Below are positions 1,436 through 34,275 of a DNA stretch of 34,275 nucleotides, piece by piece; positions within the stretch are counted from its first letter, which is position 1; the number at the start of each line of letters is the position of its first letter. A program made the translations under genes and the position numbers. Under the pieces are notes generated by a model that saw nothing but the letters and a program-made list of their open reading frames with translations, had not been told where the DNA came from and made no database searches. Origin of the DNA: Bacteroides sp. (GTDB lineage Bacteria > Bacteroidota > Bacteroidia > Bacteroidales > Bacteroidaceae); the NCBI GenBank assembly GCA_015060705.1, contig SUXY01000033.1, positions 1-34,275 of the forward strand, read 5' to 3'.

Positions 1436-1443
1436 TACATTTG
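1436..1443 (+). promoter_or_regulatory. -7 box of the cytochrome/oxidoreductase operon
   Basis: TACATTTG matches TAnnTTTG and lies 33 nt before the ATG at 1477. No clear TTTG -33 box sits at the expected distance, so the promoter may need an activator. Confidence 0.5.
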
Positions 1444-1476
1444 TAGGTAATAATCGGATAATATCGAATAAAGGGT

Positions 1477-3000
1477 ATGTCAAAGGCTAGTAAAAGTAAA
1501 AAATATTTCTTGTTGGGATTAGGAGCAATCGTTATTGGATTTTCTTTGTTGATTGTATTCAATTGGATGTGGGACAAGAGTTCTACCAACGATTCGTGTA
1601 TGTCCTGTCACTACCATACCGATTCAGACACGAGTTGGAAACAGTCGGTGCATTACAATAGTAAGAGTGGTGTAATGACGGATTGTGCCGCTTGTCACCT
1701 TCCACCGAAGGGTACTTTGGATTATACCAAGGCCAAGCTATCTACCGGTATGCAGGATGTGTGGTCTTATCTCACCAAAAACAAGGAAGACATTGATTGG
1801 GAAAGCAAGGGGGAATTGGAATATGCCCAAAAGATTGTGTACAATGAATCTTGCAAGGCCTGTCACGTCAATATTTATCCCGAAGGTATCACCGATGAAG
1901 GGGTAACAGCTCACCTTTATTACGATGACAATGAAGAAAAACTTGGTTTGCAATGTATTAGTTGCCATTTGGATGCCGGACACTATAACCCGAATTACCA
2001 ACATTCTGCATTGAAGGAAGTGCCAAAGACCAGTGGTGAAATCTATGCTTCTGCCACTGAAATAAAGTCCTTTGAAAATTACATCGAAACCATTCCGGGA
2101 ACTTCGGCTTCCATTCGTATGATTGCCATTCCGGGTGGTACATTCACCATGGGGTCTCCGGATTCCGAACCTTTCCATAAAGCCGATGAAGCTCCTCAAA
2201 GAAAAGTAGAAGTATCTTCTTTCTTCATGGGCGAAATGGAAGTGACTTGGGATCAGTTTTGGGCCTTCTATGCTGAAACCATGTCGGAAGGTCGCACACC
2301 TCCAGCTGTAATCTATGCAAACAATACCCGTGAAGATCTGGATGCAGTCAGTGGTCCGACTCCTCCATTTGGTATTCCTGACCAAGGTTGGGGTATGGGG
2401 ACTCGTCCGGCTATTACAATGACACACTATTCAGCAGAAACCTTCTGTCAATGGCTTTCGCTCAAGACCGGTAAGAAATATCGTTTACCGACCGAAGCCG
2501 AATGGGAATATGCCGTTCGTGGAGGAACAACCACTCCTTACTTCTTCGAAGGTAGTCCAAGTGATTATACCAACGAAGGTTTCTGGAACGGAATCTTTGG
2601 TGCTGATACTACTCAAATTAACCGCTATGTTGTTTATGTAAACAATAGCAAGAACCGTTCCCAAGAGCCGAGCAAGGTACAAGCTAATCCGTTCGGTCTG
2701 AAGAACATGTTGGGTAATGTTATGGAGTATTGTTCGGATTGGTATGCCGAAGATGCTTATAGCCAATTGCAAGACGGTACCAAGGATCCGAAGGGACCGG
2801 AATCGGGTACGGAATATGTTGTAAGAGGGGGTACTTATGCTAGTGATGCAGCCGACCTTCGTAGTGCAGCTCGTAGCCATACCCGCCACGACGATTGGTT
2901 GCGTACTGACCCTCAAAATCCGAAGAGTATTTGGTGGTACTCGGATATCCGTAGCATCGGTTTCCGTGTCGTATGCGAATTGCCGGAAGAAATTAAGTAA
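1477..3000 (+). CDS. NapC/NirT-type tetraheme cytochrome c fused to a formylglycine-enzyme-like (SUMF1) domain
   Basis: This 507-residue protein has two parts. The N-terminal part has one membrane anchor (residues ~10-30) and four CxxCH heme c motifs: CMSCH (41-45), CAACH (70-74), CKACH (126-130) and CISCH (160-164). 'HYNSKSGVMTDCAACHLP' closely resembles NapC/NirT/NrfH quinol dehydrogenases, which pass electrons between menaquinol and periplasmic enzymes. From ~213 on it is a SUMF1 domain ('MIAIPGGTFTMGS', 'LPTEAEWEYAVRGG', 'GNVMEYCSDWY', 'GFRVV'). The two active-site cysteines of true formylglycine-generating enzymes are missing: the segment after RGG (450-452) reads TYASDAADLRSAARS. The domain is therefore more likely structural or ligand-binding than sulfatase-activating. 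It is first in a five-gene operon ending in cytochrome c maturation genes, which fits a heme protein. The electron-flow direction and partner are inference. Confidence 0.85.
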   Translation: MSKASKSKKYFLLGLGAIVIGFSLLIVFNWMWDKSSTNDSCMSCHYHTDSDTSWKQSVHYNSKSGVMTDCAACHLPPKGTLDYTKAKLSTGMQDVWSYLTKNKEDIDWESKGELEYAQKIVYNESCKACHVNIYPEGITDEGVTAHLYYDDNEEKLGLQCISCHLDAGHYNPNYQHSALKEVPKTSGEIYASATEIKSFENYIETIPGTSASIRMIAIPGGTFTMGSPDSEPFHKADEAPQRKVEVSSFFMGEMEVTWDQFWAFYAETMSEGRTPPAVIYANNTREDLDAVSGPTPPFGIPDQGWGMGTRPAITMTHYSAETFCQWLSLKTGKKYRLPTEAEWEYAVRGGTTTPYFFEGSPSDYTNEGFWNGIFGADTTQINRYVVYVNNSKNRSQEPSKVQANPFGLKNMLGNVMEYCSDWYAEDAYSQLQDGTKDPKGPESGTEYVVRGGTYASDAADLRSAARSHTRHDDWLRTDPQNPKSIWWYSDIRSIGFRVVCELPEEIK

Positions 3001-3024
3001 AATATAATCTTAAAAGTAGATACT

Positions 3025-4380
3025 ATGAGTGAAGAAAAAATGAATAGAAGAGGCTTCTTGAAAGCGTCTACCGTATTAGGTGTAGGTAGTGTTGTTGGAG
3101 CTTCTGCACTGCTTTCTGCATGTAAGGATGGTAATGGATTGGTTCCATTGAAGCAACCGGGTGAGTTTTATGTTCCTGAGTTGCCGGATAAGGCGATGGA
3201 TGGTAAGGAATTGAAAGTGGGTCTGATTGGTTGCGGTGGACGCGGTAATGGAGCCATCGACGATTTGTTCAATGCGGCTAATGGTATTATAGTACATGCA
3301 TTGGGTGACGTGTTTGCCGACCGTGTAGAAAGTACTCGCAAGAATATTCAGGAAAAACATCATCAGGATGTACCGGCTGAAAATTGCTTCATCGGATTCG
3401 ATGCTTACAAGCAAGTCATCGACTCGGGTGTAGATATGGTGATTTTGACCACTCCTCCTGTATTCCGTCCGCTTCATTTTCAGTATGCAACTCAAAAGGG
3501 TAAGCACTCGTTCTTGGAAAAACCGATTGCAGTCGATGCAAAAGGTTATCGTACCATCATGGCAACAGCCAAGCAGGCACAAGCCAAGAATTTGAGTGTC
3601 ATTACAGGTACTCAGCGTCATCACCAACGTCCGTATGTAGAAGCCAACAAGTTGATTCAAGCCGGTTATATCGGTGAAATCACTGGTGGTAATGTTTATT
3701 GGAACCAATCCATGCTTTGGTATAGAAACCGTGAAAAAGGTTGGAGCGATATGGAATGGATGATTCGTGACTGGGTAAACTGGAAATGGTTGTCGGGTGA
3801 CCATATTGTAGAACAACATGTACACAATATCGATGTATTCTTGTGGATGTCAGGTTATCGGGTAGCTAAGGCAACCGGTTTTGGTAGTCGTCAGCGCCGT
3901 ATTACTGGTGACCAATACGATAATTTCAGTGTAGATTATGAAATGGAAAACGGTGTCCACTTACATAGTATGTGTCGTCAGTTGGATGGTTGCAGCAACC
4001 TGGTAGGTGAATATATCCAAGGAACCAAGGGCTCATGGAATAGTGTGAGCCATGAAATTAAGGACCTCAAGGGTAATGTCATTTGGAAATACGATGAAGA
4101 AGCAGCCAAGGCTGAATTCCAGCAACATAATCCATATGTACTCGAACATGTAGATTGGGTGAACCACATTCGTAAGGGTACAGCTCATGATGAAGCGACC
4201 GAATGTGCTATTTCCAGTTTGGTAGGTGTGATGGGACGTGAGTCGGCTTACAAGGGAAGCACCATTACTTGGGACGAAATGAGTCAGTCGGATTTGGACT
4301 ACATGCCGGAGAAACTCGAATTGGGTGCTATGGATATGTCGAAACATCAGGTAGAAGTACCGGGTAAGGAACAGAAATAA
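3025..4380 (+). CDS. Tat-exported Gfo/Idh/MocA family oxidoreductase (lipoprotein)
   Basis: This 451-residue protein begins with a twin-arginine signal (RR at 8-9 in 'MNRRGFLKAS') and a lipobox-like 'LLSAC' with Cys33. It is thus probably folded with its cofactor in the cytoplasm, exported, and lipid-anchored. The Rossmann motif 'KVGLIGCGGRGNG' lies at ~64-76 and the family EKP motif at 165-167. 'EQHVHNIDVFLW' (~263-274) holds the probable catalytic His. Family members oxidise or reduce sugars, cyclitols and glycosides using NAD(P); some exported members keep the nicotinamide tightly bound and transfer electrons elsewhere, as in 3-keto-glycoside chemistry. It starts 24 nt after the tetraheme cytochrome gene and ends 7 nt before a TIM-barrel gene, suggesting that substrate electrons are exchanged with the cytochrome. 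The substrate is unknown. M6 (3040) is an alternative start nearer the RR motif. Confidence 0.88.
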   Translation: MSEEKMNRRGFLKASTVLGVGSVVGASALLSACKDGNGLVPLKQPGEFYVPELPDKAMDGKELKVGLIGCGGRGNGAIDDLFNAANGIIVHALGDVFADRVESTRKNIQEKHHQDVPAENCFIGFDAYKQVIDSGVDMVILTTPPVFRPLHFQYATQKGKHSFLEKPIAVDAKGYRTIMATAKQAQAKNLSVITGTQRHHQRPYVEANKLIQAGYIGEITGGNVYWNQSMLWYRNREKGWSDMEWMIRDWVNWKWLSGDHIVEQHVHNIDVFLWMSGYRVAKATGFGSRQRRITGDQYDNFSVDYEMENGVHLHSMCRQLDGCSNLVGEYIQGTKGSWNSVSHEIKDLKGNVIWKYDEEAAKAEFQQHNPYVLEHVDWVNHIRKGTAHDEATECAISSLVGVMGRESAYKGSTITWDEMSQSDLDYMPEKLELGAMDMSKHQVEVPGKEQK

Positions 4381-4387
4381 GGGAACT

Positions 4388-5305
4388 ATGGATAGAAGAA
4401 AATTTATCACCAACTCGATGTTGGGCGCTGCTTCAGTTGCAGTTGCCGCTTCAAGTACATCTTTACTTACTTCATGCGCTTCGGCGGAAAAGAAGATTGA
4501 AGTACCTTCACCGGAACTCCGTTTGTCTTTCCAGGAAGGTATCGCACCGGGTGAAAGCTTGACTGAAAAGTTGGATTATATGGAAAGCTTGGGAGTCGTA
4601 GGTCTGGAACCGGGTGGAGGTAATCTGGCTGGTAGAGTGAATGAACTTCAGCAAGCACTTTCCGGTAGAAACATCCAAATTTCGGCTATTTGTGCTGGTT
4701 TTGGTGGCTTTATCTTGGCGGAAGACCCGAAGGTAAAGGCTGAATTTGATTCTACCATGCGTGATATCATTGCTGCTGCTGGCGAATTGGGTTCTACCGG
4801 TGTGATTATGGTGCCGGCCTTCAATTGGCAGAACGGTAGCAAGCCTCATACGTTGGAAACTCGTGAATACCTTTGCGAACAGATGCATGAATTGGGAGAA
4901 TATGCCTTGAAGCATAAGACCACTGTCATCTTGGAACCATTGAACCGCAAGGAAGCTCATTACCTTCGTCAGGTAGCCGATGCGGCTGCTATCTGCCGTG
5001 ACTCCAAGAGTGCCGGTGTGAAGTGTATGGGTGACTTCTGGCACATGCAGGAAGAAACTTCCGATTATGCAGCGTTCCTTTCGGCTGGTAAGGAATACTT
5101 GCAACATGTCCATGTAGCGAGCCGTGGTCGTCGCATCATGCCGGGTGAGGACGGTGAACTTGACAATTATGTGGAAGGTTTCCGTGCCTTGAAGCAATTG
5201 GAATATCCATACTATGTAAGTTTTGAATGTGGTACCAAGGGGGATCGCAACCAAACCGTTAAGGCGGCTGTGGAATTGCTCCATGCCCAGTGGGAACAAG
5301 CATAA
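4388..5305 (+). CDS. Tat-exported sugar isomerase/epimerase-like TIM barrel protein
   Basis: This 305-residue protein carries a Tat-type signal (RR at 3-4, hydrophobic stretch, 'LLTSC' lipobox with Cys30), matching the export route of the gene before it. The mature part fits the xylose-isomerase-like TIM barrel superfamily (AP endonuclease 2 / sugar phosphate isomerase). Likely metal ligands lie in 'VILEPLNR' (Glu), 'GDFWHM' (Asp, His), 'HVHVASRGRR' (His) and 'VSFECG' (Glu). Relatives isomerise or epimerise keto sugars, and some act on 3-keto-sugars made by Gfo/Idh/MocA partners. An exported phosphate-sugar isomerase would make little sense, so an unphosphorylated sugar substrate is more likely. 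It is third in the operon with 7-nt gaps on both sides. The exact reaction is not known. Confidence 0.82.
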   Translation: MDRRKFITNSMLGAASVAVAASSTSLLTSCASAEKKIEVPSPELRLSFQEGIAPGESLTEKLDYMESLGVVGLEPGGGNLAGRVNELQQALSGRNIQISAICAGFGGFILAEDPKVKAEFDSTMRDIIAAAGELGSTGVIMVPAFNWQNGSKPHTLETREYLCEQMHELGEYALKHKTTVILEPLNRKEAHYLRQVADAAAICRDSKSAGVKCMGDFWHMQEETSDYAAFLSAGKEYLQHVHVASRGRRIMPGEDGELDNYVEGFRALKQLEYPYYVSFECGTKGDRNQTVKAAVELLHAQWEQA

Positions 5306-5312
5306 ACGGACG

Positions 5313-6206
5313 ATGCTTTCCCGACGATATAAACAAATGATTGGACGCTGTGCCCTACTATTTCTAGTAGGCACAGCGTTGCAATTTATGTGGGGGAATG
5401 TAGATGCTTCCTTCCTGATTTACCCATGGAATCTTTGTGTAGCGGTCAATTATCTGTATTTGCATATTCTGATGTATTTTTATGCTGGTAAGTATCCTTG
5501 GGTCAAGACGTTATACGACCGACCGGCAACTCTTTCTTCTTTGTTCTCTTTATTGATACTGACACTTGTTTTCGGACTGGTCAGACAAGACGGTTCTACG
5601 GACAGTATATTGGGAATGCTCGGCTTTACCCGGATGTCCTCATCCTGGATCTTTGTCCTGTATCTTCTTCATTTCTTGACAGCTTTAGGTATGAAGGTGA
5701 TAGATGACATGGTTCATTGGAGGAAACGGAATCTTCCGGTCGTGTTGATGCATGTGGCATGCTACGTAGTTATGCTTTCTTCCGTTTTAAGTAGTGGGGA
5801 AAAAGTTCGGGTCAGGGTGACAGCGGCAGAGAATGCTTCGATCAGTATGGGAATCACAGAAAATCGAAAGATGTACGAGCTTCCTTTTACTCTGACACTC
5901 AAGGAATTCTCTATGGAGGGAGATTCTCTTCGTATGTATTATTTGTCCAAAGTAGCTATTACGGATGAAGAGGGTACTCAAGAAGCCAATATCTTGGTCA
6001 ATCATCCCGCTAGCATCGGAGCTTGGCGAATTTACCAGGCCGGATACGATCAGGTTCAAGGTCGATGGATCAGTATTTTTGAATGTGTAAAGGATGGTTG
6101 GTATCCCCTTATACAAGTAGCCATGTGGGTAATTTTGATAGGCGGTGTGTGGATGATGTTTGGGGGATGGAATCAACGGAAAAGAAAGAAGGAGGACAAG
6201 GCATGA
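5313..6206 (+). CDS. ResB-like cytochrome c biogenesis protein (system II)
   Basis: About 297 residues. The ATG at 5313 is chosen because it follows the previous stop by 7 nt, whereas an upstream in-frame start would overlap the TIM-barrel gene by more than 80 nt. There are four hydrophobic segments in the first ~165 residues ('LLFLVGTALQFMWG', 'LCVAVNYLYLHILMYFYAG', 'LFSLLILTLVFGLV', 'IFVLYLLHFLTALGM'), a soluble domain ('FTLTLKEFSMEGDSLRMYYLSKVAI...NHPASIGAWRIYQAGYD'), and a last membrane segment near the C-terminus. That layout, with a periplasmic domain containing 'NHP...WRIYQ.GYD', is typical of the short Bacteroidetes ResB/Ccs1 proteins that bring apocytochrome c to the heme ligation site. 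It overlaps ccsA by four bases (ATGA). Likely client: the tetraheme protein of the same operon. Confidence 0.8.
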   Translation: MLSRRYKQMIGRCALLFLVGTALQFMWGNVDASFLIYPWNLCVAVNYLYLHILMYFYAGKYPWVKTLYDRPATLSSLFSLLILTLVFGLVRQDGSTDSILGMLGFTRMSSSWIFVLYLLHFLTALGMKVIDDMVHWRKRNLPVVLMHVACYVVMLSSVLSSGEKVRVRVTAAENASISMGITENRKMYELPFTLTLKEFSMEGDSLRMYYLSKVAITDEEGTQEANILVNHPASIGAWRIYQAGYDQVQGRWISIFECVKDGWYPLIQVAMWVILIGGVWMMFGGWNQRKRKKEDKA

Positions 6207-6982
6207 GTTGGGAAAGTTTTATTTATTATGCGTTGCTATCCGGTTTGTGTTGGCTGGCAGGAGCTATCCTGGCTTTTCGAGATAAACGAAACATGGCGAT
6301 GACCTTTACCGGCTTGGGTTCCTTGGTTTTCTTCGTCTATATCGTAGGTCTGTGGATCAGTTTAGAACGTCCCCCTTTACGTACCATGGGAGAAACCCGC
6401 CTCTGGTATTCGTTCTTCTTGTCCATGATTGGTGGAGTACTCTATGCCAAATGTCGCTATCGTTGGATATTGGGGTTCAGTACCTTGATGTCTTTGGTCT
6501 TTGTACTTGTCAATCTGTTGAAGCCTGAAATTCATAGCAAGGCATTGATGCCCGCTCTTCAGAGTGTGTGGTTTGTCCCCCACGTTATAGTATATATGTT
6601 TTCTTATGCTCTACTGGGAGCAGTTACTCTGTTTGCTATTTACTTGTGGTTCAGAAAGACCCCCGAAGAAGCTTCCGACAAGGAATTGGGTATCTGTGAT
6701 GGATTGGTCAGAGTAGGGTGGAGTTTCCTTACTTTGGGCATGACCATGGGAGCGTTGTGGGCGAAAGAAGCGTGGGGAGACTATTGGAGTTGGGACCCCA
6801 AAGAAACCTGGGCATTTGCCACTTGGCTTAGCTATCTCTTTTATTTACACCTCCGTCCGTCTTGCAAACATCAGGATTTCTTGTTCGCTTGGTTGATCTT
6901 TTCATTCATTTTGCTTCAGATGTGTTGGTGGGGAATCAACTATCTTCCGTCAGCACAAGGTACAAGTATTCATACATATTAA
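6203..6982 (+). CDS. ccsA: CcsA-type cytochrome c biogenesis protein (heme ligation)
   Basis: This 259-residue multi-pass membrane protein completes the system II cytochrome c synthetase with the ResB-like gene before it. The tryptophan-rich heme-handling motif 'KEAWGDYWSWDPKETWAFATW' is present at ~188-207, and the C-terminus ends in 'TSIHTY', holding one of the conserved external histidines. The ATG at 6203 is chosen over an upstream in-frame ATG because it makes the coupled ATGA overlap and has a strong purine-rich site (aaggaggacaag) just before it, unusual for Bacteroidales. CcsA exports heme and attaches it to CxxCH cysteines. It is last in the operon; the next gene has its own -7 box. 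Confidence 0.9.
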   Translation: MSWESFIYYALLSGLCWLAGAILAFRDKRNMAMTFTGLGSLVFFVYIVGLWISLERPPLRTMGETRLWYSFFLSMIGGVLYAKCRYRWILGFSTLMSLVFVLVNLLKPEIHSKALMPALQSVWFVPHVIVYMFSYALLGAVTLFAIYLWFRKTPEEASDKELGICDGLVRVGWSFLTLGMTMGALWAKEAWGDYWSWDPKETWAFATWLSYLFYLHLRPSCKHQDFLFAWLIFSFILLQMCWWGINYLPSAQGTSIHTY

Positions 6983-7014: not shown

Positions 7015-7022
7015 TATCTTTG
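7015..7022 (+). promoter_or_regulatory. -7 box for the M28-like peptidase gene
   Basis: TATCTTTG matches TAnnTTTG and places the transcript start near 7029, which rules out the TTG at 7020 as a start codon and leaves ATG 7041 or 7050. No good TTTG lies at the expected -33 distance. Confidence 0.55.
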
Positions 7023-7049
7023 CCGCCAATTAATTTAAAAATGATAGGC

Positions 7050-9134
7050 ATGAAAAAGTTAAGATTTACATTTACTTTGTTTTTGTCCCTGATGATGACA
7101 GGATTGATGGGACAAGAATATACTAGCCCATTCAATCATAGTTTGATGAATGAGAAATTTTATGACTTGATTGTAGGAGAGTCGTCGGGCGATAGAGCCT
7201 TTTATCACATCTTGGATATCGCTCCTTACGAGAGAGACCGTAAAAGCGAAGACTATAAAGGTCTTTTCATGGAGTCGGTGTATGTAGTAGACAAATTGAA
7301 GAGCTATGGATTTGTCGATGCAAAGACTGAATTGTTGGGCAAGACCAAGACTTGGGACGGTGTCAGTGCTACTCTTTGGGAAGTATCTCCGAATACCAGC
7401 AAGTTGGCCGATTATCGCGATTTGGCAGCTATCTTGGGACAAGGCAGCAAGAGCGCTCATGTCACAGCAGAATTGGCTTGGGTAGGTCGTGGTACTCAGA
7501 TGGAAATCGATGCGGTTGATTTGAAGGGTAAGATTGCTGTTACTGAAGCATCGGTAGGTAGAGTCCATGATTTGGCTGTAAAGGCAGGTGCTGTCGGTAT
7601 TATCTCTTACTATTCTCCACGTCCATTGGTCGATCCGATTCAGATTCCGAATAGCGGTATCAGAGGTAACAACGCTACTTTCTGCATCAACTTGACTCCA
7701 AGAGACGGTTATGCATTGAGAGACCGTTTGTTGAAGGGCGAAAAGATTACCGTAAAGGCTGATATCGAAACCACAACCGAAGAAACCAATATCGAAGTAC
7801 CGACTTGTTTAATCAAGGGTGCTGATGCCAATGCAGAAGAAATCATTCTTTGTGCTCACCTTTTTGAAGGTTATGTAAAGTTGGGTGCAAATGACAATAT
7901 TTCCGGTTCGGCAGCTTTGATTGAAGTAGCTCGTACATTGAATGAATTGATTGAAAGCGGTCAACTCCCAAGACCGAAACGTTCCATCCGATTCATTTGG
8001 GTTCCGGAATTCCAGGGAACCATTCCATGGGCTATCCAACACAAGGATATCCTGCAGCATACCTTATGTAATATCAACCTCGACATGGTAGGCTTGTGGT
8101 TGAGCAAGAGCCAGTCCATGTATTGTTTGCATCGTACCACCATGGGTAATCCTCATTACTTGAATGATGTGGCAGAAAGTTTCTATCATTACATGGGAGC
8201 TACCAACAAGGCATTTGTAGCAACAGGCGTAGGTAGACCGGAAGCGTTGAAGCCGGTTTACAGTGTAACCGGTTCCAGAGATCCTTTCTATTACTCCATC
8301 AATGCTCATTATGGTGCATCAGACCACGAAGTATTCAATGATTGGGGTGTACAGGCACCGGGTGTCATCATGATTACTTGGCCGGATAACTACTATCATA
8401 CATCGGGTGACCGTCCGGAAATCTGTGATCCAACCCAACTTCATCGTGCCATTGTATTGGCAGCCGTATCAGCTTATACCATTGCCGAAGCCGAAGAAGA
8501 AGGTGCCGTACGCATCGCTTCTGAAGTAGCTGCCAATGCCAACAAGCGAATGGCTATTAAGATGCGTTATGACCTTTCACGAATGAATGGTGCATCTAGC
8601 GAAGATTTCTCCAAGTTGTATCGTGCGGCTAAGTTCAATCAGGATGCCATGTTGCAGAACGAAATTGCTACATTAGGTTCTGTAATGGAATTGGCTCCGA
8701 CATCGGCTTCTTTGAAAGAATTGGTAACATCGCTTCAGAATGGAGTAAAGGCAGCATGGGCAACCAATGGCAAGACAATCGATGCAGCCATGAAGGTGCG
8801 TGCAGCATCGTTGGGCGTAGCTCCGTTGAAGATTGTTCTTTCTGCCGAAGAAAAGGCAGCAACCAAGGTATATCCTCGTAGTACAGCCAAAGTAAAGGAA
8901 TTCGGTTATGGTGTTCTTCGTTCGGTATCCAAAGAATTGATGACCAAGTATGGTTTCGACCAGAGAGGTGCCGTCAATCATGGTGCTGAAATTGCTAAGT
9001 TGACCGTCGGTGGTACCAACAGCATTTTGGACATCAAGAAGATGCTCGATGCTCAATTCCCGAATCCGGATAATTTGGAAACAATCACCAACTACCTAAA
9101 AATGTTGAAAGAATCAGGATTGGTAGAATACTAA
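7050..9134 (+). CDS. Secreted M28-family (DUF4910-like) aminopeptidase with PA domain
   Basis: A 694-residue protein from ATG 7050 (ATG 7041 adds MIG). 'MKKLRFTFTLFLSLMMTGLMGQ' is a signal peptide. A PA-type insert is visible ('VDLKGKIAVTEASVGRVHDLAVKAGAVGIISYYSPRPL' region), then the zinc peptidase core: 'ILCAHLFEG' (His), 'GANDNISGSAALIEVART' (Asp), 'WVPEFQGT' (Glu), 'INLDMVG' (Asp) and 'NYYHTSGDR' (His). Where classical M28 enzymes read AEE, this one reads PEF, as I recall for DUF4910-type members, so the second metal site may differ. The last ~200 residues are helical and unassigned. The probable role is release of N-terminal residues from peptides in the periplasm or outside. It is monocistronic with a strong terminator. 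The fold is secure; activity is inferred. Confidence 0.83.
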   Translation: MKKLRFTFTLFLSLMMTGLMGQEYTSPFNHSLMNEKFYDLIVGESSGDRAFYHILDIAPYERDRKSEDYKGLFMESVYVVDKLKSYGFVDAKTELLGKTKTWDGVSATLWEVSPNTSKLADYRDLAAILGQGSKSAHVTAELAWVGRGTQMEIDAVDLKGKIAVTEASVGRVHDLAVKAGAVGIISYYSPRPLVDPIQIPNSGIRGNNATFCINLTPRDGYALRDRLLKGEKITVKADIETTTEETNIEVPTCLIKGADANAEEIILCAHLFEGYVKLGANDNISGSAALIEVARTLNELIESGQLPRPKRSIRFIWVPEFQGTIPWAIQHKDILQHTLCNINLDMVGLWLSKSQSMYCLHRTTMGNPHYLNDVAESFYHYMGATNKAFVATGVGRPEALKPVYSVTGSRDPFYYSINAHYGASDHEVFNDWGVQAPGVIMITWPDNYYHTSGDRPEICDPTQLHRAIVLAAVSAYTIAEAEEEGAVRIASEVAANANKRMAIKMRYDLSRMNGASSEDFSKLYRAAKFNQDAMLQNEIATLGSVMELAPTSASLKELVTSLQNGVKAAWATNGKTIDAAMKVRAASLGVAPLKIVLSAEEKAATKVYPRSTAKVKEFGYGVLRSVSKELMTKYGFDQRGAVNHGAEIAKLTVGGTNSILDIKKMLDAQFPNPDNLETITNYLKMLKESGLVEY

Positions 9135-11063: not shown

Positions 11064-12452
11064 CTAATCCTTGATTTTCTGCTTGTACATTTCGGCACGT
11101 CCAAGGATGTCTTTCACGAAATTGTAGGTTTCGCGACCTCGGAAGTAGCCGTTTTTGCAGACGGGATCGTTGAAGTATTCTTCGTTGCTTTTCAAAAGAA
11201 TGTAGACTTCTACATTGTCATCCCACTTATATTTGTCTTTGCCATATTTTTCGGTTAATGCCATGGCATCGAATACATGACCAATACCGGCATTGTATGA
11301 GGCCAATACAAACTTCATCTTTTCATTTGGGTCGGTCACCTTGCTGAAAGAGCGGGCTATTTGAGCCAAATACTTGGTGGCTGCTTTGACACTTTCTTCC
11401 GGATTCTGTTCCTTCCCTTCAGGGACTCCCATGGCACGGGCAGTTTTCGGCATCATCTGCATCAATCCTCTAGCACCAACCCAGGATACAGCGGTGGTAT
11501 CGAAGTTGGATTCATTGTAGGCCAACGAAGCAATCACTCGCCAATCCCAACCTACTTCCGGAGCATATTTTTTGAATAGGTCATCGAAGTGAGAAATCTT
11601 TCCGTCTTTAATGGAGAGGATAGGACCATGAGGCAGATGTTTACTTTGTTCAAAGTATTTCTTGGTGCTAGCTTTGTATGCTGGGGTCGTAATATTTTCT
11701 TTATGCCATTGGTTAGCTGCTTCTCCCAATAAAGGAGATGTTTTTCTGACCGCCCATGAAGCACGTTGGTCGAAGCTAACAGCCATTTGAATATTCAGAT
11801 TGGAATAATAAGTCTTGTTCAGGCGTGCCAAATCATTGTCAGATATGGCATAATCAATGGTTCCGTTGGATACTTGCATGAGCAAGTCTTCGTTGCTGAT
11901 GCTATCGTTGGTTACTTCGTGAATTTTGATGCCACCTCCCAGTTCTTTATCCAGATTGATCAGTCTTTCCAAATGTTTGCCCGGCTTGGCGTATACATCC
12001 TTGTCTATCAGGTCAGTGACATTGGCTAATGCTTTCTGGCCTTTTTGGCTGTTACGTTGTACCAATACTTGGTGGGTAATGATGTCTTCTCCACAAAACA
12101 ATACACTATCCTTGAATTCTTTGGTTATCGGAAGAGGGTAGGCAATGAAATCCCCTTCGCCGTTCAATAACATGTGGACCAATTCTTCGGTATCAGAAGC
12201 TGTTTTAATTTTCAGTTTCAATCCAAGGGATTCGGCAAATTGCTTTGCCAATTCGTATTGGAATCCCATGGGTTCTCCTCGATAATCGAAATAAGATATG
12301 GAACTGTTCAAGGTCAGGGCCACCACTTCACCGCTATCTTTCATTTGCGGAAGGTCGTAATGTTCCATGTCGACAGTCGTCTCTTGTTGTTTCTTTGGTT
12401 GACACCCCAACATGCAAATGCATGCAAGTATCAGGAAGGATATTTGTTTCAT
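11064..12452 (-). CDS. mltF: MltF-like lytic transglycosylase lipoprotein
   Basis: This 462-residue protein starts with a lipoprotein signal ('MKQISFLILACICMLGC'). Residues ~40-265 form a solute-binding-protein type 3 domain ('VVALTLNSSISYFDYRGEPMGFQYELAKQFAESLGL'). It is followed by an SLT lytic transglycosylase domain ('IASLAYNESNFDTTAVSWVGARGLMQMMPKTARAMG', catalytic Glu in NES; then 'VLASYNAGIGHVFDA'). This two-domain order is that of MltF, in which the binding domain is thought to sense wall fragments and regulate cleavage of glycan strands to 1,6-anhydro products. It is divergent from a Dabb gene, with interleaved promoters. The domain call is firm; regulation by ligand is known from the family, not seen here. 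Confidence 0.92.
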   Translation of the reverse strand: MKQISFLILACICMLGCQPKKQQETTVDMEHYDLPQMKDSGEVVALTLNSSISYFDYRGEPMGFQYELAKQFAESLGLKLKIKTASDTEELVHMLLNGEGDFIAYPLPITKEFKDSVLFCGEDIITHQVLVQRNSQKGQKALANVTDLIDKDVYAKPGKHLERLINLDKELGGGIKIHEVTNDSISNEDLLMQVSNGTIDYAISDNDLARLNKTYYSNLNIQMAVSFDQRASWAVRKTSPLLGEAANQWHKENITTPAYKASTKKYFEQSKHLPHGPILSIKDGKISHFDDLFKKYAPEVGWDWRVIASLAYNESNFDTTAVSWVGARGLMQMMPKTARAMGVPEGKEQNPEESVKAATKYLAQIARSFSKVTDPNEKMKFVLASYNAGIGHVFDAMALTEKYGKDKYKWDDNVEVYILLKSNEEYFNDPVCKNGYFRGRETYNFVKDILGRAEMYKQKIKD

Positions 12453-12474
12453 ATCGAGGAAATAATTAAATTTG
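12443..12474 (+). promoter_or_regulatory. Promoter of the Dabb-domain gene
   Basis: TTTG at 12443-12446 and TAAATTTG at 12467-12474, 20 bp apart. The -33 box lies just inside the start of the divergent mltF gene. Confidence 0.7.
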
Positions 12475-12477
12475 CAT

Positions 12478-12509
12478 CAAAAGTAATAATAAATCATTTA
12501 AATATCAAG
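12478..12509 (-). promoter_or_regulatory. Promoter of the mltF-like gene
   Basis: The minus strand shows CTTG at 12506-12509 (one mismatch to TTTG) and TACTTTTG at 12478-12485, 20 bp apart. It ends only 3 bp from the -7 box of the opposite-strand promoter, so the two polymerases compete for the same DNA. Confidence 0.6.
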
Positions 12510-12512
12510 CAT

Positions 12513-12812
12513 ATGGTTAAGCACATTGTCATGTTCAAGTTGAAAGAAACTCTTTCAAAGGAAGAAAAGTTGGATGTAATGAATCGTTTCAAGGCAGCTA
12601 TTGAAGCTTTGCCGGCAAAAATTGATGTGATTCGTAAAGTATTTGTAGGTTTGAATATCAACGAAGCCGAAGCGTGGGACATTTGTCTGGAAAGTGAATT
12701 TGATACATTGGATGATGTGAAGTTCTATGCTGCACATCCGGATCATGTGGCTGCTGCCGGTATCTTGAAGGACGCCAAGTTGGATCGTGCTTGTGTAGAT
12801 TATGAATGCTAA
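12513..12812 (+). CDS. Dabb (stress-responsive alpha/beta barrel) domain protein
   Basis: A 99-residue single-domain protein, starting at ATG 12513 ('MVKHIVMFKLK'). The frame is open further upstream but those codons lie before the promoter. The N-terminal strand 'KHIVMFKLK' and the C-terminal 'FDTLDDVKFYAAHPDHVAAAG' are the classic Dabb pattern of a dimeric alpha/beta barrel. Bacterial members are small cytosolic proteins, mostly without known function; related folds include olivetolic acid cyclase and muconolactone isomerase-like proteins. It shares its control region with the divergent mltF gene. No role can be assigned beyond the family. Confidence 0.88.
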   Translation: MVKHIVMFKLKETLSKEEKLDVMNRFKAAIEALPAKIDVIRKVFVGLNINEAEAWDICLESEFDTLDDVKFYAAHPDHVAAAGILKDAKLDRACVDYEC

Positions 12813-13056: not shown

Positions 13057-13908
13057 ATGCTGAGAATTGCAGTACAATCGAAAGGCCGTTTGTTTGAAGA
13101 AACAATGGCATTGTTGCAGGAAGCGGACATCAAGATTCCTTCTTCTAAGCGTATCTTGTTGGTACAGGCTTCGAACTTCCCTGTGGAGGTGCTTTTCCTC
13201 CGTGATGATGATATCCCTCAATCGGTAGCCAATGGCATAGCCGATTTGGGTATTGTAGGTGAAAATGAATTTGTAGAACGCAACGAAGATGCTGAAATCG
13301 TGAAGCGTTTGGGCTTCAGCAAGTGCCGTTTGTCGCTCGCCATTCCAAAGGATGTGGACTATCCGGGATTGTCTTGGTTCGAAGGACGGAAAATCGCCAC
13401 TTCTTATCCGGGTATTTTGGAACGTTTCATGGAAAAGCATGGTATTCATACCGATATTCATGTCATCACTGGTTCGGTAGAGATTGCTCCGGGTATCAGT
13501 TTGGCAGATGCTATCTTTGATATCGTTAGTTCGGGTTCTACTTTGGTAAGCAACCGCTTGAAGGAAGTGGAAGTAGTCATGAAGAGTGAAGCATTGCTTA
13601 TCGGCAACAAGAACTTGTCGGAAGAGAAGAAGGCTGTCTTGGAGGAATTGCTTTTCCGTATCGATGCGGTAAAGGCGGCCGAAGATAAGAAATATGTTTT
13701 GATGAACATCCCGACCGAAAAGTTGGGAGAAATCATCGAAGTACTTCCGGGCATGAAGAGTCCGACTGTGATGCCGTTGGCACAAGAAGGTTGGAGTTCC
13801 GTACATACAGTGCTCGACCAGAAGTGTTTTTGGGAAATTATCGGTAAGTTGAAGGCATTGGGTGCCGAAGGTATTTTGGTACTTCCGATAGAGAAAATGA
13901 TTTTATAA
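13057..13908 (+). CDS. hisG: ATP phosphoribosyltransferase, long form
   Basis: A 283-residue enzyme for the first step of histidine synthesis (ATP + PRPP to phosphoribosyl-ATP). 'MLRIAVQSKGRLFEETMALLQEADI', 'ADLGIVGENEF' and the PRPP-site region 'DAIFDIVSSGSTLVSNRLKEV' (family E..D.V.TG.TL) are all present. The length and the C-terminal 'VLMNIPTEKLGEIIEVLPGMKSPTVMPL' domain mark the long HisG_L form. That form carries its own regulatory domain for feedback by histidine and needs no HisZ. It is first of a four-gene cluster and is controlled by the attenuator ending 33 nt upstream. Confidence 0.97.
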   Translation: MLRIAVQSKGRLFEETMALLQEADIKIPSSKRILLVQASNFPVEVLFLRDDDIPQSVANGIADLGIVGENEFVERNEDAEIVKRLGFSKCRLSLAIPKDVDYPGLSWFEGRKIATSYPGILERFMEKHGIHTDIHVITGSVEIAPGISLADAIFDIVSSGSTLVSNRLKEVEVVMKSEALLIGNKNLSEEKKAVLEELLFRIDAVKAAEDKKYVLMNIPTEKLGEIIEVLPGMKSPTVMPLAQEGWSSVHTVLDQKCFWEIIGKLKALGAEGILVLPIEKMIL

Positions 13909-13910
13909 TT

Positions 13911-15194
13911 ATGAAAAAGATACTTTATCCGAGTAAGTCCGAATGGGCGGAAATGCTTCGTCGTCCGGTATTGAATGTCGAGATATTATTTGAAAACGTC
14001 GGCACGATTTTGAAAGAGGTGCGTACAAATGGCGATAAGGCGGTTATCGAATATGAAGAACGTTTCGATAAAGTGAAACTGGAATCGTTGGCGGTATCTG
14101 AGGCTGAAATCAAGGAAGCCGAAAAGGAAGTACCTATCGAATTGAAGGTGGCTATCTTGTTGGCTCAACGAAATATCTATACCTTCCACAAGAAGCAGAA
14201 GTTCGAAGGGAAGAAGGTGGAAACCATGGAAGGTGTCACTTGTTGGCAAAAGGCTGTAGGCATCGAAAAGGTGGGTTTGTATATCCCTGGGGGAACAGCA
14301 CCATTGTTCTCTACCGTGTTGATGTTGGCTGTACCTGCCAAGATTGCAGGTTGTAAGGAAATAGTTCTGTGTACACCTCCCAACAAGGAAGGTAAAATCA
14401 ATCCGGCTATTCTTTATGCAGCTCAGGTAGCTGGTGTAAGCAAGATTTTCAAGGCTGGTGGTGTTCAGGCAATCGGTGCGATGGCTTATGGTACGGAGAG
14501 TGTGCCTAAGGTATACAAGATTTTTGGTCCGGGCAATCAGTATGTCATGGCGGCAAAACAACAAGTGGCCATGCACGATGTAGCCATTGACATGCCGGCA
14601 GGTCCGTCGGAAGTGGAAGTGATTGCTGATGAAACAGCCAATCCGGCATTTGTGGCAGCTGACTTGCTTTCTCAGGCGGAACATGGTGTGGATAGTCAGG
14701 TGGTCTTGATAACGACTTCAGAAAAGTTGCTTGATGAAGTGGAATACGAAGTACAACATCAGTTGTCCCGTTTGCCTCGTTGGCAGATTGCAGAAAAGTC
14801 ATTGGTGAATAGTAAGTTGATTTTGGTGAAGGACATGGATGAAGTGATTGAACTGACCAATGAATATGCACCGGAACACTTGATTATCGAGACCAAAAAC
14901 TATATGGAATTGGCGGAAAGAGTTGTGAATGCCGGTTCGGTCTTCTTGGGTTCCTATACTCCGGAAAGTGCGGGTGACTATGCATCGGGTACCAACCATA
15001 CCTTGCCGACCAATGGTTATGCCAAGGCATATAGCGGTGTAAGTTTGGATAGCTTCATCCGGAAGATAACCTTCCAGGAAATCAGTCGGGAAGGTATTCA
15101 GAACATTGGTCCGGCTATCGAAGTTATGGCGGCTCATGAGCAACTGGATGCTCACAAGAATGCAGTAACCGTTCGTTTGAATTCATTGAAGTAA
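13911..15194 (+). CDS. hisD: Histidinol dehydrogenase
   Basis: A 427-residue, zinc-dependent, NAD-dependent enzyme that oxidises L-histidinol to histidine in the last two steps of the pathway. Family motifs: 'KVGLYIPGGTAPLFSTVLMLAVPAKIAGC', 'IFGPGNQYVMAAKQQV', 'DMPAGPSEVEVIADETANPAFVAADLLSQAEHG' (zinc-binding Gln/His), and 'YAPEHLII' with the catalytic Glu-His pair. The length is usual for the family. It starts two nt after the hisG stop, so it is translationally close-coupled. Confidence 0.97.
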   Translation: MKKILYPSKSEWAEMLRRPVLNVEILFENVGTILKEVRTNGDKAVIEYEERFDKVKLESLAVSEAEIKEAEKEVPIELKVAILLAQRNIYTFHKKQKFEGKKVETMEGVTCWQKAVGIEKVGLYIPGGTAPLFSTVLMLAVPAKIAGCKEIVLCTPPNKEGKINPAILYAAQVAGVSKIFKAGGVQAIGAMAYGTESVPKVYKIFGPGNQYVMAAKQQVAMHDVAIDMPAGPSEVEVIADETANPAFVAADLLSQAEHGVDSQVVLITTSEKLLDEVEYEVQHQLSRLPRWQIAEKSLVNSKLILVKDMDEVIELTNEYAPEHLIIETKNYMELAERVVNAGSVFLGSYTPESAGDYASGTNHTLPTNGYAKAYSGVSLDSFIRKITFQEISREGIQNIGPAIEVMAAHEQLDAHKNAVTVRLNSLK

Positions 15195-15197
15195 ATT

Positions 15198-16241
15198 ATG
15201 AGAAGTTTGAAAGAATTGACACGTCCCAATGTATGGGCTTTGAAACCATACTCTTCGGCACGTGATGAATATAGTGGAGTGGAAGCATCGGTATTCCTCG
15301 ATGCGAATGAGAATCCGTATAATACTCCCAACAACCGTTATCCGGACCCGTTGCAACGGGATTTGAAAGCGTTGATTGCTCCTTTGAAAGGGGTAAAGGA
15401 AGAAAATATTTTCTTGGGTAATGGTAGTGATGAAGCCATTGACTTGATATTCCGTGCATTCTGTCGTCCGGGTATTGACAATGTGGTGGCTATCGATCCT
15501 ACTTACGGTATGTATCAGGTATGTGCCGAAGTGAACGATGTGGAATATCGTAAGATGTTGCTTGATGTGTATTATCAGTTCAAGGCTAGTTCTTTGCTTT
15601 CGGCCATTGACGAGAATACCAAGGCTATGTTCATTTGCTCGCCTAACAATCCGACTGGCAATAGCCTTTGTCGCAAGGAAATTGAGTCGTTGTTGAAGAA
15701 GTTCGATGGTTTGGTAGTGGTGGATGAGGCTTACATCGATTTTTCCAGTTCGGAATCGTTGTTGAAGGATTTGGAACAATATCCGAATTTGATTGTGTTG
15801 CAGACCTTCTCGAAAGCTTGGGGTTGTGCGGCTATCCGTTTGGGTATGGCTTTTGCATCACCTGAAATCATTGCGATTTTCAATAAGATCAAGTATCCGT
15901 ATAATGTGAATCGATTGACTCAAGAAGAAGCGATGAAGGTTTTGAAACAACCGGAGCTAATCAAGGCATGGGTTAATACTTTGCTCGAAGAACGTACCCG
16001 AGTGATGGATGAGTTTGTCAAGTTGCCTTGTTGTGTACGCGTATTTCCGACTGATGCCAACTTCTTCTTGGCGAAGGTTTATGAAGCTACACAGATTTAT
16101 AACTATTTGGTCAGCGAAGGTATCATTGTACGTAATCGTACAAATGTAGCTTTGTGTAATGATTGCTTGCGCATTACGATTGGTACGAAGGAAGAAAACG
16201 ATGCTTTGTTGGATGCTTTAAGAAAGGTGGAGGTAGAATGA
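15198..16241 (+). CDS. hisC: Histidinol-phosphate aminotransferase
   Basis: A 347-residue fold-type I PLP enzyme converting imidazole acetol phosphate to L-histidinol phosphate. '[12 protein letters not shown]' and '[17 protein letters not shown]' bind substrate and cofactor phosphate, 'CSPNNPTGN' and '[11 protein letters not shown]' are typical, and Lys206 in '[16 protein letters not shown]' is the PLP Schiff-base lysine. It begins 3 nt after hisD and overlaps hisB by four bases (ATGA). A phenylalanine/tyrosine aminotransferase paralog is less likely given the his operon context. Confidence 0.97.
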
Positions 16242-17359
16242 AGAAAGTATTGTTCATAGATAGAGACGGTACGTTGGTTATCGAACCCCCCATCGATTAT
16301 CAGCTTGATGCTTACGAGAAGTTGGAATTCTATCCGAAGGTATTCCGTAACCTTGGTTTTATCCGTAGTAAATTGGATTTTGAGTTTGCCATGGTGACTA
16401 ATCAAGACGGGTTGGGTACTTCATCTTTTCCGGAAGATACATTTTGGCCGGTGCATAACCTTATGATGAAGACCTTTGAAAACGAAGGCATCACTTTCGA
16501 TGAAGTGTTTATAGACCGTAGTTTCCCGGAAGACAATGCACCGACCCGTAAGCCACGCACCGGTATGTTGGGTAAATACTTGAACAATCCGGAGTACGAT
16601 TTGGCTGGCAGTTTTGTGATAGGCGACCGTTATACCGATGTGGAATTGGCTAAGAACTTGGGTTGTAAGGCGATTTATCTGCAAGACAATCAGGATGCAT
16701 TGGTAGAAAAGGGTTTGGAAGAGTATTGTGCCTTGGCTACCAAGGATTGGGATCAGATAGCCGAATTTCTTTTTGCCGGAGAACGGGTAGCAGAAGTAAG
16801 ACGCACCACCAAGGAAACCGATATATATATAAAGGTAGACTTGGACGGAAGCGGAAAGTGTGATATCTCGACCGGCTTAGGATTCTTTGATCACATGTTG
16901 GAACAAATCGGTAAGCATGGAAGTATCGACTTGACTATTCGTGTGAAAGGTGATTTGGAAGTGGATGAACATCATACCATCGAAGATACAGCCATTGCCT
17001 TAGGTGATTGTTTGGCACGTGCATTAGGCGATAAGCGAGGCATTGAACGATATGGTTATTGTTTGCCAATGGATGATTGCTTGTGTCAAGTCGCTTTGGA
17101 TTTTGGCGGTCGTGCCTGGTTGGTATGGGATGCCGAGTTCAAGCGTGAAAAGATAGGAGAGATGCCGACCGAAATGTTCTTGCATTTCTTCAAGTCATTG
17201 AGTGATGCGGCTAAGATGAATCTTAATATCAAGGCTGAAGGGCAAAATGAACATCACAAGATTGAAGGTATCTTCAAGGCATTGGCCCGTGCCATCAAGA
17301 TGGCAGTCAAACGAGATATTTATCATTTCGAAGTTCCTTCCAGTAAAGGTAGTCTCTGA
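16238..17359 (+). CDS. hisB: Bifunctional histidinol-phosphatase / imidazoleglycerol-phosphate dehydratase
   Basis: A 373-residue fusion of two pathway steps. Residues 1-~165 are a HAD phosphatase ('[15 protein letters not shown]' nucleophile Asp, '[17 protein letters not shown]', 'TRKPRTGML', '[16 protein letters not shown]'). Residues ~185-373 are the manganese dehydratase ('[14 protein letters not shown]', '[14 protein letters not shown]', '[18 protein letters not shown]'). The start at 16238 forms an ATGA overlap with hisC; the longer frame would extend into hisC. The phosphatase loop reads '[11 protein letters not shown]' and lacks the zinc-binding Cys/His cluster of the E. coli enzyme. 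hisH, hisA, hisF and hisI are not here, so the pathway is split between loci. Confidence 0.96.
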
Positions 17360-29210: not shown

Positions 29211-31022
29211 ATGAAAACAACATTTATATCCGTTTTATGTCTTTTAATCTCTTTGGGCGCATCTGCTCAATGGAAACCGGCTGGTGATAAAATCAAGACT
29301 CAATGGGCGGAGCAAATCGATCCAAATAATGTTTTACCGGAATATCCTCGTCCGATTATGGAACGTGGAGAATGGAAGAATCTGAATGGTTTGTGGCAAT
29401 ATGCCATTGTTGATAAGGGGGCACGTACTCCGCAAACATTCGATGGAGAAATTCTGGTGCCGTTTGCCGTGGAATCTTCTCTTTCAGGTGTCCAAAAGCG
29501 CATCGACGATACCAAGGAGTTGGTATACCAACGTTCTTTCGATGTTCCTTCGGCATGGAGAGGAAAACAAATCCTGCTTCACTTCGGTGCGGTGGATTGG
29601 AAAGCGGATGTATGGGTAAACGATGTGAAGGTGGGTAGTCATACCGGTGGATATGCTCCGTTCTCTTTCGATATCACTCCGGCATTGGTAGCGAAGGGTG
29701 CCAACAAATTGGTGGTTCGTGTATGGGACCCGACCGACAAGAGTTACCAGCCTCGTGGAAAGCAGGTGAGTAATCCGAGTGGTATCTGGTATACGCCGGT
29801 CAGTGGTATCTGGCAAACGGTATGGTTGGAACCGGTAGGAGAGAAGCACATTGCCAACCTCCGTATCCTCCCGGATGTAGACCGGAATATCTTGAAGGTA
29901 GATGCTTGTGTTACTGACCACGATGCAACCGATATGCTCGAAGTCAATGTATATGACGGCAATCAATTGGTGGCGTCGGGCAAGAGCATTAATGGCGAAC
30001 CGGTAGATGTAGCCATGCCGGAAGATGTGAAACTCTGGAGTCCGGACAGTCCTTTTCTTTATACATTGAAAGTCGCTCTAACTAGCAAAGGTAAGGTGAT
30101 GGACAAGGTAGACAGTTATGCAGCCATGCGTAAGTTCTCTACCCGTCGCGATGCAGAAGGCATCGTTCGTTTGGAACTGAACAACAAGCCTCTCTTCCAG
30201 TTTGGTCCGCTTGACCAGGGATGGTGGCCGGATGGTCTGTATACTGCTCCGACCGATGAAGCCTTACGTTACGATGTTCAGAAGACCAAGGATTTCGGTT
30301 TCAACATGATTCGTAAACACATCAAGGTAGAGCCTGCCCGTTGGTACATGCATTGCGACCAGTTGGGTATCATCGTATGGCAAGACATGCCGAGTGGCGA
30401 CAAGAACCCGGAATGGCAGATGTATCAATACTTCAACGGTCGTGAACGTGTCCGCTCAGCCGAATCGGAAGCCAACTATCGCAAGGAATGGAAAGAAATC
30501 ATGGATTACTTGTATTCGTATCCTTGTATCGGTACATGGGTGCCGTTCAACGAGGCATGGGGGCAGTTCAAGACTCAGGAAATAGCCGAATGGACCAAGC
30601 AATACGACCCGTCCCGTCTGGTGAATCCGGCAAGTGGTGGCAACCATTACCAGTGTGGTGATATGCTCGACTTGCATAAATACCCGGCTCCTGAAATGTA
30701 TCTTTACGATGCCCAGCGCCCGACTGTCTTGGGTGAATATGGGGGTATCGGCCTTGTGATGAAAGACCACTTGTGGGAGCCGAACCGTAACTGGGGATAT
30801 GTACAGTTCAATTCATCGAAAGAAGCAACCGATGAATATGTGAAGTATGCCGAAATGCTTTATAATTTTATCAAGAAGGGATTCTCGGGTGCTGTCTATA
30901 CGCAGACTACTGATGTGGAAATCGAAGTGAACGGTTTGATGACTTATGACCGTAAGGTAATCAAGTTGGATGAGGCTCGTGTTCGTGAAATTAACCAACG
31001 TATTTGCAATTCATTGAAATAA
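29211..31022 (+). CDS. Secreted glycoside hydrolase family 2 enzyme
   Basis: 603 residues with a signal peptide ('MKTTFISVLCLLISLGASAQ'). The jelly-roll sugar-binding domain is at ~40-215 ('RGEWKNLNGLWQYAI', 'LVPFAVESSLSGVQ', 'LLHFGAVDWKADVWVNDVKVGSHTGGYAPFSFDIT'), then an immunoglobulin-like domain, then the TIM barrel. Glu448 ('VPFNEAWGQF') is the probable acid/base and Glu509 ('VLGEYGGIG') the probable nucleophile. It is short for the family and lacks LacZ C-terminal domains; the specificity (galactosidase, glucuronidase, mannosidase or other) cannot be told. It precedes a second GH2 gene by 26 nt, so they are probably co-transcribed and may attack the same glycan. Confidence 0.93.
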   Translation: MKTTFISVLCLLISLGASAQWKPAGDKIKTQWAEQIDPNNVLPEYPRPIMERGEWKNLNGLWQYAIVDKGARTPQTFDGEILVPFAVESSLSGVQKRIDDTKELVYQRSFDVPSAWRGKQILLHFGAVDWKADVWVNDVKVGSHTGGYAPFSFDITPALVAKGANKLVVRVWDPTDKSYQPRGKQVSNPSGIWYTPVSGIWQTVWLEPVGEKHIANLRILPDVDRNILKVDACVTDHDATDMLEVNVYDGNQLVASGKSINGEPVDVAMPEDVKLWSPDSPFLYTLKVALTSKGKVMDKVDSYAAMRKFSTRRDAEGIVRLELNNKPLFQFGPLDQGWWPDGLYTAPTDEALRYDVQKTKDFGFNMIRKHIKVEPARWYMHCDQLGIIVWQDMPSGDKNPEWQMYQYFNGRERVRSAESEANYRKEWKEIMDYLYSYPCIGTWVPFNEAWGQFKTQEIAEWTKQYDPSRLVNPASGGNHYQCGDMLDLHKYPAPEMYLYDAQRPTVLGEYGGIGLVMKDHLWEPNRNWGYVQFNSSKEATDEYVKYAEMLYNFIKKGFSGAVYTQTTDVEIEVNGLMTYDRKVIKLDEARVREINQRICNSLK

Positions 31023-31036
31023 TAATAGAAACTTAA

Positions 31037-34275
<3,239 letters not shown>

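Follow-up and report, generated by a model that had tools for sequence, protein, structure and literature searches.

The window analysed here is the whole stretch of 34,275 nucleotides (nt) that makes up contig SUXY01000033.1 of a Bacteroides sp. (assembly GCA_015060705.1); it is the entire contig 76 of a source genome of 2.95 Mb that is 88% complete. Five consecutive genes on its forward strand encode a cytochrome fusion protein, two enzymes with export-signal motifs and a pair of cytochrome c synthetase subunits. An earlier reading made without database searches (the sequence-only reading) had proposed that they form an operon with gaps of 24, 7, 7 and -4 nt, and the coordinates of the open reading frames (ORFs) agree with it exactly; the families named there are likewise borne out by Pfam/NCBIfam matches for all five genes. 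The genes, with the two halves of the first, are as follows.

1477-3000, forward strand: gene 1, fusion of a NapC/NirT tetraheme cytochrome with an FGE-sulfatase-like domain, 507 amino acids (aa) (ORF, Pfam, predicted structure)
1492-1995, forward strand: Cytochrom_NNT half of gene 1, residues 6-173, with the N-terminal helix, four hemes and K87-x3-G91-x2-D94
2119-2886, forward strand: FGE-sulfatase/SUMF1-like half of gene 1, residues 215-470, with a conserved tail to residue 500 (Pfam, PDB matches, predicted structure)
3025-4380, forward strand: gene 2, Gfo/Idh/MocA oxidoreductase with twin-arginine (Tat) signal and lipobox, 451 aa (ORF, Pfam)
4388-5305, forward strand: gene 3, xylose-isomerase-like TIM barrel with Tat signal and lipobox, 305 aa (ORF, Pfam)
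5313-6206 (ATG at 5313), forward strand: gene 4, ResB/CcsB-type cytochrome c synthetase subunit, short form, 297 aa
6203-6982 (ATG at 6203), forward strand: gene 5, CcsA-type (Cytochrom_C_asm) cytochrome c synthetase subunit, 259 aa

Gene 1 encodes a fusion protein rather than a plain NapC/NirT cytochrome, because beside the Cytochrom_NNT match of residues 6-173 (2e-26 in Pfam, four CXXCH motifs) its residues 215-470 match FGE-sulfatase (7e-40), with a better score than that of the cytochrome half; the sequence relatives of this second half in the PDB are FGEs, a Treponema variable protein, PvdO and PorK, and the predicted structure of the whole protein, which is of moderate confidence (mean predicted local distance difference test (pLDDT) 71.9), has its best fold matches in FGEs, human FGE being in rank 1. 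The sequence-only reading had described a membrane-anchored tetraheme NapC/NirT cytochrome, which holds for the N-terminal half and fails for the protein as a whole, the larger FGE half having been overlooked. The fusion architecture occurs also in the Bacteroidales isolates Phocaeicola abscessus CCUG 55929 and Alistipes sp. dk3624. Among the matches listed for open-licence PMC text, none dealt with a fusion of NapC and FGE, and none with a Gfo enzyme linked to a cytochrome.

Conservation was followed in the best 80 of 197 loci (loci and genomes are cited by our own L and G numbers). Since many of these loci come from related gut metagenome-assembled genomes (MAGs), counts over them are not independent; the alignments, which omit genes cut at the 3' side by contig ends, hold 80 fusion, 75 Gfo and 73 isomerase rows plus the window. 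The gene for the Gfo/Idh/MocA enzyme (Gfo) adjoins the fusion on its downstream side in all 79 loci with room for it, and the barrel gene follows in 74 of 74, with a gap of >300 nt in 18 of these. The fusion has its nearest relatives in MAGs labelled Bacteroides or Bacteroidaceae and recovered from the gut of ruminants (roe deer, water buffalo, goat); in P. abscessus all five genes are present. Among 60 related genomes (G010, G029 and G046 being <70% complete) a full-length fusion is found in 11, and a Gfo orthologue in the same 11, without correction for ancestry. The window-type barrel is present in 7 of these 11; a different barrel subfamily is adjacent in G042, G049 and G057, and the contig of G046 is merely 3.4 kb long. 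In an even draw of the phylum, the full-length fusion appears in 3 of 395 genomes (the source genome, G406 and G404), and a fourth, G308, has the FGE half alone (E <= 1e-60); G404, from another class, keeps fusion and Gfo, with a barrel gene just upstream. As it occurs in only 11/60 and 3/395 genomes and Gfo stays next to the fusion, the module is rare and patchy in distribution, yet tightly conserved where present. Conservation in order, which the sequence-only reading had proposed as a check for all five genes, applies to fusion, Gfo and barrel, whereas the linkage of the synthetase pair (ccsBA) is clade-specific.

The cytochrome half has the heme motifs CMSCHYH, CAACH, CKACH and CISCH, in this order, and a predicted N-terminal membrane helix at residues 5-34. 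In an alignment of 38 fusion sequences the four CXXCH motifs, extra histidines and K87-x3-G91-x2-D94 are invariant, the last being an NrfH-type pattern in which the Lys has a recognised role. The NNT domain, the four hemes and the helix assign this half to the NapC/NirT family, with whose NrfH/NapC quinol dehydrogenases it shares one membrane helix, the tetraheme arrangement and the K-x3-G-x2-D pattern; it differs from them in the first heme, in the FGE-like half fused to it and in its partner, which is Gfo and not NrfA. The first-heme CXXCHxM of the NrfH branch, present in 10/10 short NNT-type (NrfH-like) proteins found in related genomes, is replaced by CXXCHxH in all 80 fusion rows that extend over this column (one locus is truncated there). 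In NrfH the heme on the menaquinol side takes its Met ligand from CXXCHXM and has an Asp on its distal side (PMC8840924); Asp94 is retained in the fusion although the Met has become His. Therefore the fusion cytochrome is a distinct branch with an altered first-heme motif, still looking quinone-reactive. For NapC-family proteins, quinol oxidation is given as the usual direction in PMC12285233.

Nitrite reduction by the fusion cytochrome is rejected on the searches for NrfA, and with it the pairing with a nitrite reductase that the sequence-only reading had held to speak against its own proposal. NrfA (PF02335) has no match in the 88%-complete source genome, where the fusion is the only NNT protein. 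Four of 13 fusion-bearing genomes searched have a strong match and two, G057 and G404, a weak one (best 24.3 bits, cut-off 24.1); NrfA has a separate NrfH of its own in the two loci read (G027, G025), and no fusion locus that was read shows NrfA next to the fusion. The first 100 CXXCH DNA sites listed for the source genome make up 30 loci, none of which contains an ORF of >80 aa bearing at least two CXXCH, an uninformative count.

The FGE half retains the fold in a model of moderate confidence and lacks the two cysteines that bind copper in FGEs: their positions correspond to S456 (aligned to 6s07) and L461 (by spacing), and both are non-Cys in 81/81 fusion rows, which rules out sulfatase maturation. 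Two family-specific motifs, SGPTPPFGxPDQGWG and TDPQxPKSxWWxSD, are invariant or near-invariant in 38 sequences, and their loops (residues 288-305 and 475-490) have pLDDT <50 in the model. The NCBIfam model for the FGE-fold protein PvdO (dihydropyoverdine dehydrogenase) matches gene 1 weakly, with 87.2 bits against a cut-off of 500. Having lost the copper site of FGE, this FGE-fold domain probably serves to bind a ligand or a partner. A stand-alone homologue with a signal-like start and 45% identity exists in G308 (G308:C1:5879772-5880653; L146 9407-10408); it has the second motif (DPQxPKSxWW), and no cytochrome or Gfo lies within the 19.9 kb read.

Gene 2 matches GFO_IDH_MocA and the C3 domain (3e-9 each), and the Rossmann NAD-binding motif (GxGxxG 69-74, D95), the EKP lysine (165-167), E263/H267 and the alpha/beta C-domain place it in the Gfo/Idh/MocA family. 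The Tat signals and lipobox cysteines reported earlier for both enzymes recur in their homologues. By permissive patterns, R[RK]xF for the Tat signal and a loosely defined lipobox, both are found in 79/79 linked Gfo copies of the 80 loci; the isomerase homologues have R[RK]xF in 64/64 and the lipobox in 59/64 scored, 11 of 75 being unscorable. Five more distant cytochrome-linked Gfo copies all have a lipobox Cys (2/5 fit the pattern), whereas of four cytochrome-unlinked paralogues three lack it and one (G049) has it. Inositol dehydrogenases head the PDB sequence matches, the best NCBIfam model is inositol 2-dehydrogenase (TIGR04380, 51.6 bits, far below the cut-off of 355), and the top Foldseek match of the model is TM_0414; DgpA1 and DgpA are among its best structural neighbours (17-19% identity), in a ranking that is a set of ties. 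Cysteines of Gfo were considered as a redox relay to the cytochrome, an idea that was dropped because Cys70 is present in 4/4 and Cys317 in 3/4 cytochrome-free paralogues.

The barrel of gene 3 (AP_endonuc_2, 2e-28) is a close relative of the solved structure 3kws and is related to the 3-keto-D-glucoside 4-epimerase 6wn6, against which it scores 83.0 bits, compared with 46.5 bits for TM_0416. The positions E183, D216, H242 and E280, which we take to be metal ligands, are kept in 74/74 rows, and these conserved E/D/H/E positions in a homologous barrel agree with a YcjR-like enzyme. The best NCBIfam model, 5-keto-L-gluconate epimerase IolO, is far from its cut-off. The product is best read as a metal-dependent barrel of the keto-sugar isomerase/eliminase type.

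Genes 4 and 5 match ResB (4.5e-12) and Cytochrom_C_asm (5e-30), and gene 5 reaches 127.8 bits with the CcsB-type model TIGR03144, below its cut-off of 187.6. The ResB product, at 297 aa, is shorter than those of L102 (396 aa) and L072 (408 aa), an internal stretch apparently being missing; a short open frame is likewise seen in L062 and L063, the nearest relatives. That ccsBA is an obligate part of the operon, as the sequence-only reading implied, does not stand, for ResB follows the barrel in only 44 of the 73 loci whose isomerase gene is complete; in 28 it is missing although 461 to 6,703 nt of contig remain, and in one there is no room. CcsA was found by tblastn after ResB in 36 of these 44 loci, and three of the eight misses end <=130 nt from a contig end. 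On the one hand, gene 5 is the only PF01578 match in the source genome, system II ccs genes stand beside the window fusion as they do beside nrfHA in G007 and G025, and in G025 one CcsA lies near the fusion and another near nrfHA. On the other hand, G058 and G042 have no ccs genes at the fusion locus, their sole PF01578 match lying elsewhere in an ORF of 835 or 1034 aa. Given this contrast, the dedication of ccsBA is real in one clade and is not a defining part of the module.

Several known systems resemble the operon in part. Glucose-fructose oxidoreductase of Zymomonas and GH109 are exported Gfo-fold enzymes with bound nicotinamide, redox-neutral and not cytochrome-linked; both are fold matches of the window Gfo, with 12-14% identity. 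E. coli YcjS is of the Gfo type, and YcjS and YcjR are presumably cytosolic. The pair is described as a sugar dehydrogenase and a 3-keto-D-glucoside isomerase barrel in an ABC-importer cluster, with no cytochrome named in the part of PMC11543891 available. DgpA works by a ping-pong mechanism in which bound NAD is recycled by 3-oxo-glucose and no cytochrome is needed (PMC11239390), and in the Agrobacterium GlycDH-AtOGE-AtHYD-Gfo operon Gfo does the reduction step (PMC10628242); DgpA/DgpBC and the latter operon likewise combine a Gfo enzyme with isomerase-like TIM barrels acting on 3-keto-glycosides, and the available parts of both papers mention no multiheme cytochrome. Exported glycoside oxidation of the Gfo/Idh/MocA type occurs in Bacteroides thetaiotaomicron, where the use of disaccharides requires BT2158, a glycoside 3-dehydrogenase of the periplasm (PMC11300592), and BT2157 is a DUF1080 3-ketotrehalose hydrolase (PMC9007349). 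The window operon has the tetraheme-FGE fusion in place of a DUF1080 protein, and its Gfo scores 24.4 bits with the NCBIfam equivalog BT_2158_fam (cut-off 750), a model matched at E <= 0.001 by 25 of the 32 sequences in the Gfo alignment. The operon is thus a variant of the exported keto-sugar oxidoreductase systems, marked by the cytochrome-FGE fusion.

The genes around the homologous loci bear on the substrate. 3-keto-disaccharide hydrolases (PF06439) are found in G404, in a cluster with several Tat-Gfo and barrel genes, and in L105; in L067, L069 and L070 they are assigned by similarity to the L105 protein, and in G049 one shares a 13 kb contig with another Gfo copy. These neighbours, together with the nearest structures, favour 3-keto-glycoside chemistry. 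A second Gfo gene, lacking a Tat motif by eye, is directly upstream in 11/80 loci and in G025, and in G406 one lies upstream beyond a glycoside hydrolase family 2 (GH2) gene.

We propose, at a probability of roughly 45%, that the operon encodes an exported, NAD-carrying sugar or glycoside dehydrogenase and a keto-sugar isomerase, with electrons exchanged with menaquinone through the fusion cytochrome. The fusion would be a tetraheme cytochrome of the inner membrane, of the NapC/NrfH type, equipped with an FGE-fold binding or docking module; Gfo would be exported by Tat, anchored by lipid and take its NAD along, and the barrel would be exported and anchored in the same way and depend on metal. 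Outside the cytoplasm Gfo would oxidise a ring hydroxyl, most likely at C3, of a sugar or glycoside, and the barrel would rearrange or cleave the keto product. When this cycle is out of redox balance, the bound NADH could be re-oxidised by the fusion cytochrome and the electrons passed to menaquinone; the hemes of the cytochrome would be attached by ccsBA. It is from the co-inheritance of fusion and Gfo that the two are argued to work together. A narrower form, in which the FGE-fold domain docks Gfo so that a dedicated cytochrome re-oxidises the NAD-retaining enzyme and extracytoplasmic sugar oxidation feeds menaquinone directly, is doubtful. What weighs against the proposal is that its step from NADH to heme seems to lack a known precedent, for we know of no NAD-dependent enzyme that passes electrons to a NapC-type cytochrome, and that DgpA manages without a cytochrome.

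The main rival, which we consider rather unlikely, is a redox-neutral keto-glycoside cycle, in which Gfo would use one bound NAD both to oxidise the glycoside that enters and to reduce the keto-sugar that leaves; the cytochrome would only prime or repair the redox state of the cofactor or have a separate job, with no net flow of electrons. The ping-pong cycle of DgpA and the requirement for BT2158 in disaccharide use are in line with it, as are the 3-keto-disaccharide hydrolases near several loci and the Gfo paralogues that sit in loci without a cytochrome; however, one would not expect fusion and Gfo to share the same 11/60 genomes in the absence of electron exchange. Comparably unlikely is a different substrate, inositol or another polyol or a keto-uronate, handled by an exported IolG/IolO-like pair. 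The best NCBIfam models of both enzymes, the inositol dehydrogenases among the PDB matches of Gfo, and TM_0414 and TM_0416 among the matches of Gfo and barrel point that way, but the NCBIfam scores are all far under the family cut-offs, the barrel scores higher with the 3-keto-D-glucoside 4-epimerase, and the neighbouring genes are 3-keto-disaccharide hydrolases.

In the proposed exchange with menaquinone the electrons probably flow in the direction of sugar oxidation, because menaquinone should take up electrons from sugar hydroxyls more easily than menaquinol gives them to a keto-sugar, so that reduction of a sugar ketone by menaquinol would be uphill. The opposite flow, from menaquinol through the fusion cytochrome to a Gfo that reduces keto-sugars as an electron sink or for 3-keto-sugar salvage, is improbable; it would suit the invariant K-x3-G-x2-D of the fusion, whose Asp lies at the quinol-side heme in NrfH, while salvage could be done with cytosolic NADH by the cytosolic-type Gfo encoded upstream (11/80 loci, G406, G025). 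Least likely of all, an FGE half acting as a catalytic terminal domain (metal/thiol redox) fed by the hemes, with Gfo and isomerase downstream or making its substrate, would explain near-invariant motifs that are modelled with low confidence, as if a ligand were missing, and the weak PvdO match, but it conflicts with the loss of Cys at the copper positions and with the second motif being shared by a G308 protein that has neither cytochrome nor Gfo nearby.

In gut bacteria, keto-glycoside pathways are emerging as an alternative to the hydrolytic breakdown of glycans and plant glycosides, and a co-inherited quinone-type cytochrome makes the redox balance of exported NAD-bound enzymes a testable question. 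The proposal gives a candidate function to the tetraheme and copper-less FGE-fold architecture, and to 3kws, which is described as a 'putative sugar isomerase'; in gut Bacteroidales, unusual (keto-)sugar chemistry would be wired to the respiratory chain.

Other features of the loci touch the operon less directly. Genes resembling cydAB of the bd quinol oxidase were recognised by eye upstream of the fusion in 7/80 loci (L090, L092, L093, L094, L096, L098, L127) and about 1 kb from the operon on the other strand in G057 (L151 11788-14483); they suggest respiration and are not general. In G025 (L179 6228-15198) and G027 (L177 8605-16225), both of which possess the cytochrome fusion too, Gfo and barrel genes with Tat signals stand beside SusD/SusC-like genes, the SusD of L179 being assigned by Pfam and the other Sus, Gfo and barrel genes by eye; L179 has a 3-keto-disaccharide hydrolase as well. 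Between Gfo and barrel, 14 loci, all but one Alistipes-labelled, have a small DUF6016 gene (for example L085 ~12051-12536), labelled by Pfam on one representative and presumably a WbuC-like cupin. Two boxes of the form TAnnTTTG, which we take to be the Bacteroides-type -7 promoter motif, flank the operon.

1436-1443, forward strand: TAnnTTTG box TACATTTG, 33 nt upstream of gene 1
7015-7022: second TAnnTTTG box, preceding the M28 peptidase gene that is next after the operon

They are weak promoter evidence, because 40 such boxes are observed in the window and 27 are expected by chance. The M28 peptidase gene (7020-9134) was rejected as a sixth member, since among the 80 loci it adjoins the operon only in the nearest relative L062. 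Further along the window lie ordinary histidine biosynthesis genes (13057-17359; hisG, hisD, an aminotransferase and hisB-type) and two consecutive GH2 genes (29211-34273), the second of which runs off the contig end.

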